Shown: positions 30,610 to 35,530 of the stretch, piece after piece | How the letters are laid out: each line of letters opens with the position of its first letter | Numbering within the stretch: the stretch's first letter is position 1 | Notes under the pieces: generated by a model | Told to the model about the DNA's origin: nothing | The model's input: the letters and a program-made list of their open reading frames with translations, nothing else | The model's database searches: none | Translations under genes and position numbers: made by a program | Source of the DNA: Pseudomonadota bacterium | GTDB taxonomy: Bacteria; Chloroflexota; UBA5177 | Assembly: GCA_021324655.1 (NCBI GenBank) | Contig: JAJPIP010000076.1 | Span: 1 to 35,530, forward strand | DNA length: 35,530 nt | Direction of reading: 5' to 3'

Positions 30610-31683
30610 TCAGGGTCCAGCGCGCCGGATACCCTCAGGCGGCTCGTGTGAGTTAGCGAGTCTCGAGGCCCGTATCTCCAACAGCCAAAACCCCGCCGCC
30701 ATCACCCCGGCGAGGACGATGAATGCGATGAGTTTGAGGAGCTTCAACAACAGAAGGTCAAGGGCCCCGAGCGCCACGCAGAGCAGGTAGAAAAGCAAGA
30801 CGACTCGCCGATACCCGACTCCCAGCTCCAGCAGCCGGTGATACACGTGCTGCTTGTCTCCGGACAGGAAACTTCTGCCGTGCATGCTTCGACGGACGAT
30901 GGCCCAGGCAACATCCAGCACGGGAATGATGAGCACCAGAAGGGCCGTTCCGAGCTTGGTCGCGCCGGTGATCGACAGGGCCCCCACGGCCAGACCGAGA
31001 AAGAGGGCTCCGGAGTCGCCCAGGAAAATCCGGGCCGGGCGCCAGTTGAAAGGAAGAAAGCCGATCAGCGCCCCGGCGAGCGCCAGCGGGAGGAAGAGAT
31101 TTTCCTGGTGCGTCCCCGGGAGAAAGAATCGCCTCGGCTCCGAGGCCCAGATCGCGAGCAATAACGCGGCCAGAGCCACGACGCCGGAGGCAAGCCCGTC
31201 GAGCCCGTCCAGGAAGTTGATGGTGTTCATCATGCCCACGAGCCACACCAGCGTGAACAGCAGACCGACGGCGCCCGGAACGACGAGACCGGGCGCAGTT
31301 AGTCCCGCGGTCGGCAAACTGATTGTCCTGACGAAACCAACGCCCGCCAGTATGGCGACGCCCGCGACCACCGCCTGTCCGATGAGATGAACCAGGGGAG
31401 GCAGGCTGACCTTCTCATCAACCACGCCGACGATCACGGCGACCAGTCCGCCCACCAGAAGTCCCGTGACGGTTGGAGTCAGGGGAAGGGTGGCAACAGC
31501 GGCCACGGCGAACGCAATGTACACGGCGACACCGCCCAGCAAGGGCGTGGCCGTTTTGTGAATTTTCAGCCCGACAGGTCGATCAATGATGTTGAAGCGA
31601 CCAGCCGCATAGATAGCGGCCGGCGTCACCAACAGGGCTACGACGATACCGATGGCAAGCGGTAGGTACCAGCCGGAACCCAG
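30610..31683 (-). CDS. WecA/MraY-type polyprenyl-phosphate sugar-1-phosphate transferase, CTG start proposed
   Basis: 357 aa if it starts at CTG 31683-31681. AGGAGG lies 5 nt upstream of that codon, right after the previous gene's stop. The first standard start in frame, TTG at 31632, would cut the first TM helix (YLPLAIGIVVALLVTPAAIY). No ATG, GTG or TTG occurs between the upstream in-frame stop and that TTG. Family motifs are clear: KIHKTATPLLGG, the Asp-rich NTINFLDGLDGLASG, FNWRPARIFLGDSGALFLG, and the cytoplasmic loop GDKQHVYHRLLELG. There are about ten TM helices. It links a sugar-1-phosphate (often GlcNAc) to undecaprenyl phosphate, the first step of many glycan pathways. Confidence 0.88.
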   Translation of the reverse strand: MGSGWYLPLAIGIVVALLVTPAAIYAAGRFNIIDRPVGLKIHKTATPLLGGVAVYIAFAVAAVATLPLTPTVTGLLVGGLVAVIVGVVDEKVSLPPLVHLIGQAVVAGVAILAGVGFVRTISLPTAGLTAPGLVVPGAVGLLFTLVWLVGMMNTINFLDGLDGLASGVVALAALLLAIWASEPRRFFLPGTHQENLFLPLALAGALIGFLPFNWRPARIFLGDSGALFLGLAVGALSITGATKLGTALLVLIIPVLDVAWAIVRRSMHGRSFLSGDKQHVYHRLLELGVGYRRVVLLFYLLCVALGALDLLLLKLLKLIAFIVLAGVMAAGFWLLEIRASRLANSHEPPEGIRRAGP

Positions 31684-31696: not shown

Positions 31697-33071
31697 ACCC
31701 GATGCCGACGGCGGTTGGATCAGGAATGTATTGTCGAGCCTCGCCGATGTCCCCAGCGGGGCGGCCCACCTCGTGGTACATGACTCCGGGGGCGAAGGTC
31801 CGATCTCGCCACGCCCCGAAGTTGTCCACGATGATGGTTCCAGGGCGAATGAAGCCTTCCACCGGCTCCGTCAGGTACGGAGTGTGTGAGGTCACGAGGA
31901 CGATCCCGTCGCACTCGGCTAGACCCTGCGGGAAGGACAGCCGCGTTACCCCACAGATGTCCTCGATCTCGTCGCTCGTGTAGTAGGGATCATGGGCCTG
32001 GAGCCGCGGGGTCTCTTTCAAACAGGCAACGGCATCGATCGCCGGTGAAAGCTTGTGCATTTTGGCGTCCGCCGTGTACGCCAGTCCGAGCACCGCTATC
32101 GAACGGCAGTCCTTCAACAAGTCGCGGAGTCGGTCCTCATAGAGGCGGCGGAAGTATCCGTCGTTAAATGCGACGGCCTCACGGACCGGAGCCAGGTAGC
32201 CGTTATCCGGACCGCCCTCGGCCAGGGCGTAGCGCGGCGCCAGAGGGATGCAGTGGCCGCCGATTCCCATCGAGGGATGATACCGAGGAATGTTCCACTT
32301 CGTTGACGCTAGCCCGAGGACGTGCGTCATGTCGTACTGGGGAAAGGCAAGTGCCAGGCTGTTGGCCAGCGCGAGCCCCTGAAATCGGAGCAGATTCTCG
32401 ATGACCTTGGTAAACGCGGCGTGATAGGCGTCGCGAGCCGGGACGATTTGTCCACAGACGAGGCTATAGACCTCCGACAGAAAGCGCGTGGCCTCGTCAG
32501 TGCTGCCCCCCACGATGCGTGGCAATGTTTCCAGGGTATGGTCACGGCCGGAAAACCAGTCACGCCGGGGAGCGGCGCCAATCAGGACGTCGACGCCCGG
32601 GCGTAAGCCGGCCGCGTGCAGGGCGGGAAACACGATCGTGTCCAGCCAGCTTGGCTGGATCGTGCTCTCAATGCTGACGACGGGGATGAGGCCATCAAGA
32701 TCGGTGGCGCGGATGACCTCACAGACTCGCGGCATGATGTCCTCGAGCGCGGCTGAACTCGGATCCGCGCCGCGTTCGGTGGGAACCGCGATGATGTGGA
32801 AGAGGACGCGCTGGTCAATCATCCGGCGCCAGTCTGTGGTGGCGATAACAGGGGCACCCGGGGACTCAAGGCGCTCGATGCCGGCGGTGTCGGTCGAGAG
32901 GAAGTGACCATCACGGATTTCCGAGACGCGCGTGTCGGCGATGTCGTAGCCGATACAGCGCACGCCCTGCTGGCAGAAGTGGTACATGGCACTCGCGCCG
33001 ATATGTCCGCACCCCCAGACACCCAGCGCGACGCTGCCTTGCTGTAATCGCTCCACTGCCCTATCCACCAT
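31695..33071 (-). CDS. UDP-glucose/GDP-mannose dehydrogenase family protein (WecC-like)
   Basis: 458 aa from the ATG at 33071, with GGAGAGGA (33085-33078) 6 nt upstream; a longer start at 33113 is rejected. The NAD-binding motif is VALGVWGCGHIGASAMYHF. The middle domain has AFTKVIENLLRFQGLALAN. The catalytic Cys lies in MGIGGHCIPLAPRYA. The C-terminal domain has AVLGLAYTADAKMHKLSPA. The enzyme oxidises a nucleotide sugar to its uronic acid by two NAD-dependent steps. It is rather diverged (APRRDWF where family members often have NPERV), so the substrate (UDP-ManNAc, UDP-GlcNAc or UDP-Glc) is open. It lies between WecG- and WecA-like genes. Confidence 0.82.
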   Translation of the reverse strand: MVDRAVERLQQGSVALGVWGCGHIGASAMYHFCQQGVRCIGYDIADTRVSEIRDGHFLSTDTAGIERLESPGAPVIATTDWRRMIDQRVLFHIIAVPTERGADPSSAALEDIMPRVCEVIRATDLDGLIPVVSIESTIQPSWLDTIVFPALHAAGLRPGVDVLIGAAPRRDWFSGRDHTLETLPRIVGGSTDEATRFLSEVYSLVCGQIVPARDAYHAAFTKVIENLLRFQGLALANSLALAFPQYDMTHVLGLASTKWNIPRYHPSMGIGGHCIPLAPRYALAEGGPDNGYLAPVREAVAFNDGYFRRLYEDRLRDLLKDCRSIAVLGLAYTADAKMHKLSPAIDAVACLKETPRLQAHDPYYTSDEIEDICGVTRLSFPQGLAECDGIVLVTSHTPYLTEPVEGFIRPGTIIVDNFGAWRDRTFAPGVMYHEVGRPAGDIGEARQYIPDPTAVGIG

Positions 33072-33828
33072 TAGCGATCCTCTCCGTTCCCACTCCCCGA
33101 CCCGACATGACAAGCCATACGAACCGTGGTAAGGCTACCATACGCCGCGCTCTCCACGGCTGTCGGACCAGTCTCCACAACCACTCCAGTCCGTGGTCCT
33201 GCATCCACCGCGGGGCGCGCTTCGCTCTGCCGGCGATATAGTCAAAACTTCCGCCGACGCCGAGCGCGACGGTCACCCCGCTCGCTGCCATATTCTCGGC
33301 GATCCACATCTCTTGCCTGGGGGCTCCGAATGCCACCATCACGATATCGGCTCCGGAGTCTCGGATCCGACCCGTAATCGGCCCGGCAAGTCGTGGATCG
33401 GGAGAACCCGCTTCGGCTCCGACGACAAGCAGACCGGAATAGGCGTGGGTCAGGCGACGTCGAACCGCCTCGGCGACGCCGGGCTGCCCACCAAGAAGGT
33501 ACAGGCGGTGGGAGTGCCGCGCTGCCTGCGCGCTGATCGTCCAGATCAGATCCGACCCGCCCACCCGGCGCCGGACGGACGCCCCCTGTCTCGCCAGAGC
33601 CCATATGACTCCCGCCCCATCGGGCGTTGCCAGGTCGGCGTCCTCAAGCACCTCCCGAAAGGCCGCATCGCGCTGTGCCCGCACCACGAACTCTGCATTC
33701 ACGGTCACGATGCGGCAACGGGTACCGGAGGTCACTCGCCCCGCTATAAGGGCGAGCACTTCATCTTCATTGACGGCGTCGACGGCGACGCCGGCCACCC
33801 GATAGCGCTCAGTCGTCTCGTTGGGCAT
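33061..33828 (-). CDS. WecG/TagA/CpsF-family glycosyltransferase (GT26)
   Basis: 255 aa from the ATG at 33828; the upstream continuation of the frame is antisense-like and rejected. Family blocks: GVAVDAVNEDEVLALI, the TVNAEF motif, ADLATPDGAGVIWA with the catalytic-type Asp, LYLLGGQPGVAEAVRRRL, DIVMVAFGAPRQEMWIAEN and VALGVGGSFDYIAGRAKRAPRWMQ. The C-terminal amphipathic helix (LEWLWRLVRQPWRARRM) is the membrane-contact part. WecG adds ManNAcA, TagA adds ManNAc, to undecaprenyl-PP-GlcNAc. It overlaps the GT9 gene by 20 nt and the dehydrogenase gene by 11 nt, so the operon is tight. Confidence 0.9.
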   Translation of the reverse strand: MPNETTERYRVAGVAVDAVNEDEVLALIAGRVTSGTRCRIVTVNAEFVVRAQRDAAFREVLEDADLATPDGAGVIWALARQGASVRRRVGGSDLIWTISAQAARHSHRLYLLGGQPGVAEAVRRRLTHAYSGLLVVGAEAGSPDPRLAGPITGRIRDSGADIVMVAFGAPRQEMWIAENMAASGVTVALGVGGSFDYIAGRAKRAPRWMQDHGLEWLWRLVRQPWRARRMVALPRFVWLVMSGRGVGTERIANGG

Positions 33829-34883: not shown

Positions 34884-34912
34884 AGTATAAGGGGACTAGC
34901 AGACGGGGTCGA
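34884..34912 (-). promoter_or_regulatory. Promoter of the GT9-wecG-wecC-wecA-like operon (probably leaderless)
   Basis: Minus-strand TCGACC (34912-34907, four of six), 17 nt, then TATACT (34889-34884, five of six). The -10 ends 7 nt before the ATG at 34876, so the mRNA should begin at or within a base or two of the start codon. This is the best -35/-10 pair among the leaderless candidates here. The -35 lies inside the end of the upstream 100-aa gene. Confidence 0.6.
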
Positions 34913-35198
34913 TGTCCCCCAGGATGCGGGCGAGAGCCTGGACGGCGAGCGCCTCGATCTCGGGATCTATGTCCGCCGGCCGGGTCACCAGGCGATGACG
35001 ACCTGTCCGCGCTTCTTCCAGCACCAGTTGCACATGCCCGGCGCGGCGCGTCTCGCGAACGATGCGGAGGAGGCCCCGACGCACGCAGATCATCGTCCAG
35101 ACGTAATGGAACAACTCGTTGGAGCGGACCCGGTCGCCGCGGACGTCGTCAAGGAGGGCGTCTATCCTGCCCACGGTCTCGGCCTGATCGAGGGTCAT
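34896..35198 (-). CDS. Hypothetical protein, 100 aa
   Basis: The ATG at 35198 has GGGAGGGA 7 nt upstream. The longer open frame to 35480 is rejected because the added part is Gly/Arg/Asp-rich and crosses a strong ribosome-binding site and micro-ORF. The protein is helical and charged (MTLDQAETVGRIDALLDDV, NELFHYVWTMICVRRGLLRIVRE, then QLVLEEARTGRHRLVTRP). No TM helix or catalytic motif is visible and I do not recognise a family. Its start overlaps the stop of a 25-aa membrane peptide as ATGA. Codon use is like its neighbours. Confidence 0.65.
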   Translation of the reverse strand: MTLDQAETVGRIDALLDDVRGDRVRSNELFHYVWTMICVRRGLLRIVRETRRAGHVQLVLEEARTGRHRLVTRPADIDPEIEALAVQALARILGDIDPVC

Positions 35199-35272
35199 GC
35201 GTGCGTCCCTCCCGTCGGCATCATCAGATAGATAACTCCCAGCAAGATGAACATGCACGCCCACAACTCCAC
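35195..35272 (-). CDS. 25-aa single-TM micro-ORF
   Basis: A GTG at 35272 has an excellent GAGGGAGG (35285-35278) 5 nt upstream. The peptide is one hydrophobic helix (ELWACMFILLGVIYLMM) with a short polar tail. Its TGA overlaps the ATG of the 100-aa gene (ATGA). Strong ribosome-binding site, coherent TM composition and exact coupling favour a real small membrane protein. A leader peptide controlling the next gene is the alternative. Confidence 0.55.
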   Translation of the reverse strand: MELWACMFILLGVIYLMMPTGGTHA

Positions 35273-35285
35273 GGCAACCTCCCTC

Positions 35286-35486
35286 GGTACGTTCCAAAAT
35301 CCACTCTAGGCCGGTGCCGGGGGTGCGACTACCGCCGCTGCGATCCCTCGAAACACTGTCGCGTCTTATGTCAAACGCGCCCCGGAGCGCCGGAACCGGC
35401 GGTATGAACTGCCCGACCCCGTGCGCTACCTCCACCTGTCCGCGCCGGCCATCCACGTCTTTGTCCGCACCTTCATCCACGGCAAT
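35286..35486. other. Intergenic stretch with no supported gene
   Basis: About 200 nt between the micro-ORF and the right-edge terminator. Open frames here have poor, repetitive composition and no ribosome-binding site. A weak minus-strand TAGAGT (35308-35303) could be a -10 for the micro-ORF. I see nothing else. Confidence 0.4.
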
Positions 35487-35512
35487 AAAAAAGGCCGGCC
35501 CACCGGCCGGCC
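35487..35512 (-). terminator. Intrinsic terminator of an off-window minus-strand gene
   Basis: On the minus strand GGCCGGCC-GGTG-GGCCGGCC (35512-35493) is followed by TTTTTT (35492-35487). The 8-bp GC stem and T-run fit a rho-independent terminator for a gene entering from the right edge. In-frame stops TGA are present just upstream (35529-35527 and 35516-35514), but its frame cannot be known. Confidence 0.85.
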
Positions 35513-35530
35513 CTCAGGTGAAGGACTCAA

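Follow-up and report, generated by a model that had tools for sequence, protein, structure and literature searches.

The window, i.e. the whole stretch of 35,530 nucleotides analysed here, is the entire contig C36 of its genome (G000), one of the seven genomes (G000 to G006) of a Chloroflexota class used in this work. On the minus strand, positions 35272 to 35195 consist of a GTG, 24 further codons and a TGA, and encode the 25-residue peptide MELWACMFILLGVIYLMMPTGGTHA, a predicted single-pass membrane protein. The Shine-Dalgarno sequence GAGGGAGG is located at 35278-35285 (minus strand), with the GTG 5 nt further 3'; from the upstream stop codon to this GTG, the reading frame contains no other ATG, GTG or TTG. 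The TGA overlaps by 4 nt, as ATGA, the ATG of an open reading frame for a 100-aa protein (34896-35198, minus strand), whose product has a predicted HH-EEE-H fold. A preliminary description of this DNA had claimed a GTG-started 25-codon ORF with GAGGGAGG 5 nt upstream, one hydrophobic helix and an ATGA link, and each of these was re-read in the sequence.

The 100-aa gene is followed after 19 nt by a heptosyltransferase-like glycosyltransferase gene of family 9 (GT9, PF01075; 33809-34876), then by genes for a WecG/TagA/CpsF glycosyltransferase (PF03808; 33061-33828, ATG at 33828), a UDP-sugar dehydrogenase (PF03721, PF00984, PF03720; 31695-33071, ATG at 33071) and a glycosyl transferase of family 4 (PF00953, WecA/MraY superfamily; 30610-31632), all on the minus strand. 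These co-directional genes look like an envelope-polysaccharide set. Positions 35424-35530 of the window overlap the last 107 nt of contig C111 of the same genome (L082). The micro-ORF is thereby seen to be preceded immediately by a ferredoxin gene with its terminator, the terminator-like intrinsic hairpin lying at 35490-35515 (minus strand). The gene order ferredoxin, micro-ORF, 100-aa gene, GT9 is common to G000, G002 and G003. In G004 (G004:C104; L030/L070) the ferredoxin gene is followed directly by the GT9 gene, and the micro-ORF and the 100-aa gene are both absent. By eye, no standard start codon is seen where this GT9 gene would be expected to begin.

Gene finders usually skip ORFs of about 25 codons, and a functionless chance ORF was among the explanations considered: the window contains 581 ORFs of 20-40 codons (start to stop, both strands, each start counted). 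Only 18 of these 581 have a Shine-Dalgarno match of at least 5 nt and only three reach a 15-residue hydropathy of at least 2.0; the micro-ORF alone combines both. Together with the conservation and the further copies described below, this makes a chance ORF very improbable indeed.

The preliminary description had named conservation of the peptide in relatives as one check, and this conservation holds. G002 and G003 represent two further genera of this Chloroflexota family, and in both a 25-codon ORF also lies directly before the 100-aa gene (MSLWITMFIILGFAYLMIPGGRHFV and MTVWSILFIFLGFLYLTLPSGKFRS, respectively). Ten of the 25 columns are invariant among the three peptides, a Shine-Dalgarno sequence is present at the equivalent place (GGAGG in G002, GAGGGG in G003), and the overlap with the start codon of the 100-aa gene (ATG, ATG and TTG) is 4, 1 and 4 nt in the window, G002 and G003, respectively. 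For all ten pairs among five sequences, the similarity of the peptides exceeded that obtained when the observed substitutions were re-placed at random positions (P 0.00005-0.0055; the pairs share sequences and are not independent). In each of these pairs the micro-ORF frame was the top-scoring one of six frames, and the second codon position showed the fewest changes. This pattern of substitutions indicates that the peptide is under purifying selection and that the micro-ORF is very probably a real gene, so that an ORF of 25 codons can be recognised as a gene by sequence comparison alone.

A profile built from the three sequences retrieved further copies in G002:C87 (26 aa, E 2.7e-7), G005:C17 (29 aa counted from GTG, E 5.7e-4) and G000:C112 (27 aa, E 0.098); a profile including these three gives E values of at most 1.1e-10, which is circular. 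A degenerate DNA motif derived from the six copies had six matches in 400 genomes of the phylum, all of them members of the family, and the reversed motif had none in the same genomes. The family, which consists of six sequences from draft genomes, follows the pattern M-x-[LVI]-W-x3-[FC]-[IL]-x-[LV]-G-x2-YL-x2-P and ends in a short tail, basic in the five copies other than that of the window; the G005 copy has one extra N-terminal stretch. All six copies retain W4, G12, Y15, L16 and P19, and their 15-residue hydropathy ranges from 1.97 to 2.45. No match was found in Pfam, NCBIfam or PADLOC, the best PHROGs match had an E value of 0.3, and among the literature matches listed, as far as the available parts of these texts go, there was no paper on this family. 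The members known to date all come from a single order of a Chloroflexota class. Of the seven class genomes (82-88% complete), G001, G004 and G006 yielded no micro-ORF, so that the protein is either dispensable there or was missed.

Several weaker matches were discarded. Eight weak profile matches in the phylum fall in large ORFs (frames of 529-693 aa); three of them (L052, L054 and L059), together with a similar match in G003 (L064), lie in GMTIDLGFAY-type reading frames, which we take to encode SelB-like GTPases, and the remaining five were judged by their like range and frame size. Matches in G227 and G004 (E 0.76) contain an internal stop, a match in G123 is a portion of a 101-aa frame, and weak matches of the three-sequence profile in G001 and G006 (E of at least 0.29) were also dropped, L015 alone having been inspected.

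Three copies of the micro-ORF have no 100-aa gene beside them. In G002:C87 the flanking genes are a convergent ORF and, on the other side, a divergently oriented MMPL gene; a hairpin behind this copy has the form of a terminator solely for the convergent gene, which lies on the opposite strand. The copy in G000:C112 sits approximately 580 nt past an M55 peptidase gene, and the next co-directional ORF of at least 90 aa starts 428 nt downstream; in G002, an M55 gene is 4.6 kb from the C87 copy. The copy in G005:C17 lies 32 nt upstream of a set of AllH, CoA-ligase and AllG genes (an oxamate-carbamoyltransferase-type operon).

The 100-aa protein was detected in three of the seven class genomes (G000, G002 and G003), with one distant homologue among the 400 genomes of the phylum (G088, E 3e-8), which is not preceded by a micro-ORF. 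No homologue was found in G005, and candidates in G025 and G048 (E 0.003-0.008) were not recovered by a profile at E 0.001. Searches of Pfam, NCBIfam, PADLOC and PDB sequences gave no notable match, the best PHROG having an E value of 0.034. An AlphaFold2 model from three sequences (pLDDT 83.9) shows the HH-EEE-H fold; since Foldseek returned nothing at E of at most 0.001 and the best VIA Z score was 3.6, the fold search was uninformative on the function of this protein.

Upstream of the micro-ORF, on the minus strand, we found a putative -10 element, TAGAGT (35303-35308), which begins at position -36 relative to the start codon; it matches the consensus and was not listed by a sigma-70 scan. 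At -100 lies the element GACATAA (35366-35372), and further upstream three GTGGAY-type boxes (GTGGAT, GCGGAC, GTGGAT) follow each other with a 12-nt period (35449-35480; 17 of 18 positions, P 0.001). The same composite arrangement of three GTGGAY boxes at a 12-nt period, GACATAA and a TATAGT-like -10 element precedes four of the six copies, including the one in the unrelated operon of G005:C17. In the window, G002, G003 and G005, GACATAA starts at -100, -98, -100 and -104, the TAKAGT element (TAGAGT in the window, TATAGT in the others) lies at -36, -35, -38 and -40, and for the four copies the box array scores 17, 17, 14 and 15 of 18 (P 0.001, 0.001, 0.006 and 0.001). In 400 shuffles of the four upstream regions a shared 7-mer at one place never occurred, the longest shared word being 5 nt, and only one site in the window, that of the micro-ORF, reaches at least 18 of 24 for the array. 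The shared elements emerge only if position and spacing are taken into account: in pairwise comparisons of the upstream regions the window and G002 passed and the other 14 pairs did not. GACATAA was absent within 260 nt upstream of the copies in G002:C87 and G000:C112, and the array test failed for G002:C211 (P 0.118).

We then searched the seven class genomes for GACATAA-N54-58-TAKAGT, which gave 11 matches versus five for the reversed control. They comprise four micro-ORFs, four sites before conserved non-coding sequence, one before a hydrophobic ORF of 52 aa with the site GGGGGGAG and the promoter layout of the micro-ORF (G003:C69:5114-5183, minus strand; L092), and two that look like chance (G006:C133 and G003:C29). 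The array pattern, with up to three mismatches, gave 26 matches versus two for the reversed control; it was built from known promoters, five of which were re-found among the 26. Dropping the window site repeated in the overlapping contig and two loci that end before the downstream stretch (L117 and L118) leaves 23 sites. On the strand of the array and 40-220 nt downstream of it, 13 of these have an exact GACATAA, three a first-letter variant and seven neither. None of 25 array loci had GACATAA upstream or on the opposite strand (the upstream stretch of the window measuring 11 nt). Because five of the 13 sites are the source of the pattern, the independent count is eight of 18. At most two mismatches occur in 12 distinct sites (five of them source sites), of which 10 have GACATAA and the other two the variant; among the 11 sites with three mismatches and a complete stretch, three have GACATAA and one the variant. 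Several of the remaining array sites fall inside long reading frames.

Six small RNA-like loci, two each in G000, G002 and G003, have the promoter layout of the micro-ORF (L086:114-223, minus strand; L088:1571-1680, plus strand; L090:1391-1500 and L091:1391-1500, both minus strand; L096 and L116). They share a hairpin with the loop GGAGGTGGGGG, in which one C-G pair is changed to T-A on both sides in two of the six loci; in these two, the outermost two positions are unpaired. A second hairpin lies downstream in the four loci that were aligned, and an Rfam scan of these four gave no match at the conserved place. Array sites also precede proteins of 62-77 aa at five loci, one each in G000 to G004 (L110 in G000:C86, L098 in G001:C85, L105 in G002:C29, L102 in G003:C84 and L108 in G004:C315), with GACATAA following the array, in one case as the first-letter variant. 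These proteins have a common ADLKIFWGPEICRLEYLLHLLETGRI-type block that starts with DL(K/R)(I/V)(F/I)WG and ends with HL(L/V)(D/E)TGRI. One array site in G000:C21 precedes an ORF of 226 aa, and further sites are found in G002:C94 and G005:C7.

With a little less than even confidence, we propose that these elements define an undescribed regulon of this Chloroflexota lineage, in which three GTGGAY boxes at a 12-nt period, with GACATAA about 65-170 nt on and often a TATAGT-like -10 element, would drive membrane micro-proteins, the 62-77-aa proteins and a structured small RNA with the GGAGGTGGGGG loop, possibly under DnaA or another tandem-box regulator. DnaA is a candidate because TGTGGAYAA, the complement of the DnaA box, occurs in the consensus derived from the arrays of eight promoters; in the comparison with TTATCCACA-type DnaA boxes, the window's own boxes depart from this consensus. 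The dnaA regions showed no array at the threshold used, one contig ending shortly upstream of dnaA. The window boxes at 35449-35480 (minus strand) look like tandem DnaA boxes. If the shared promoter is confirmed, the array and GACATAA would provide a handle for locating small proteins and small RNAs left unannotated in these genomes, and would open the question of a regulator common to both.

As to function, selection on the peptide, the occurrence of the promoter layout before an unrelated operon and the copies without a close co-directional gene favour a micro-protein working in trans over a leader acting in cis. We consider it reasonably probable that the micro-ORF encodes a lineage-specific single-pass membrane protein of 25 residues, a real gene that would be translated as the first cistron of the operon, probably with translational coupling to the 100-aa gene. 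Most likely its product would act in trans, serving as a small adaptor or regulator at the membrane, with the helix in the membrane and a membrane partner bound through the invariant W, G, Y, L and P positions, which plausibly form a helix-packing face. According to the positive-inside rule, segments bearing lysine or arginine stay in the cytoplasm; the tail would thus be cytoplasmic, since five of the six tails carry one to three K/R and the first eight residues carry none in any copy. The topology of the window's copy is uncertain, as its tail has no K/R.

The preliminary description had suggested either a leader peptide or a subunit anchoring the 100-aa protein. A role in cis only, in which coupling or a leader function opens the start of the 100-aa gene and the amino-acid sequence is irrelevant, would suit the promoter-proximal position, the strong ribosome-binding site and the overlap of 1-4 nt in three genomes, but we regard it as unlikely: the amino-acid sequence is conserved in all pairs tested, a convergent gene lies behind the G002:C87 copy, and the next co-directional ORF is distant in G000:C112. 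Leader peptides of attenuated operons are likewise short first cistrons near the promoter, but here the residues are conserved, the next gene is overlapped and two copies have no close co-directional gene; because of the overlap in the three genomes, no attenuator hairpin fits between the micro-ORF and the 100-aa gene. A leader whose amino-acid sequence is irrelevant thus finds no support. The anchor hypothesis fared better, in part. That the micro-protein is an anchor or subunit dedicated to the 100-aa protein and the glycosyltransferase operon agrees with the gene order kept in G000, G002 and G003 and with the joint absence of both small genes in G004, but three of six copies are located elsewhere, that of G005 without a detected 100-aa homologue, which leaves the idea doubtful. 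The copies away from the 100-aa gene indicate that the peptide is selected without being tied to this partner. In the window operon it might still help to hold the 100-aa protein or the glycosyltransferases at the membrane, which is a guess with a modest chance of being right.

A small hydrophobic toxin (type I or TimP-like), damaging membranes and restrained by an RNA, was also considered. Like TimP (PMC7667032) and type I toxins, the micro-protein is tiny, hydrophobic and membrane-directed; its size, single helix and basic tail, the copies without a partner gene and the small RNA-like family with the same promoter layout would all fit. It differs from these toxins in being encoded by an operon gene that is conserved and has a strong ribosome-binding site, the operon copies standing before metabolic genes, and for two small RNAs of G000 against the two micro-ORF mRNAs of this genome no pairing beyond shuffled controls was detected (21-153 of 200 shuffles were as strong in the four combinations). 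We therefore judge a toxin improbable as well.

The trans-acting membrane adaptor that we favour has parallels in CydX (the subject of PMC4325964), KdpF, AcrZ, MgtS and PmrR, small accessory proteins with a single helix that serve bacterial membrane enzymes; some of these proteins are encoded in the operon of their partner. Like them, it has fewer than 40 residues and one hydrophobic helix, and is easily missed by annotation; unlike them, it has copies in different operons or without a close co-directional gene, and no sequence match to them was found. All six copies are shorter than 50 aa with one predicted helix, in keeping with an accessory protein, as is the purifying selection on the peptide. 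With E values of up to 10 allowed, the three operon copies matched no Pfam or NCBIfam model, those of KdpF and CydX included, in a search where HMMER filters weaken queries of 25 aa. Neither kdpA nor cydAB adjoined a copy among the scanned neighbours, which comprise ferredoxin, GT9, WecG, M55 and M24 peptidases, molybdopterin oxidoreductase, MMPL, AllH, AllG, CoA ligase and a family-less ORF of 878 aa.

In the G002:C87 copy (L066:6581-6661, minus strand), TATAGT lies 15 nt before the ATG and no Shine-Dalgarno sequence is seen by eye; for these two reasons, this copy may be leaderless.
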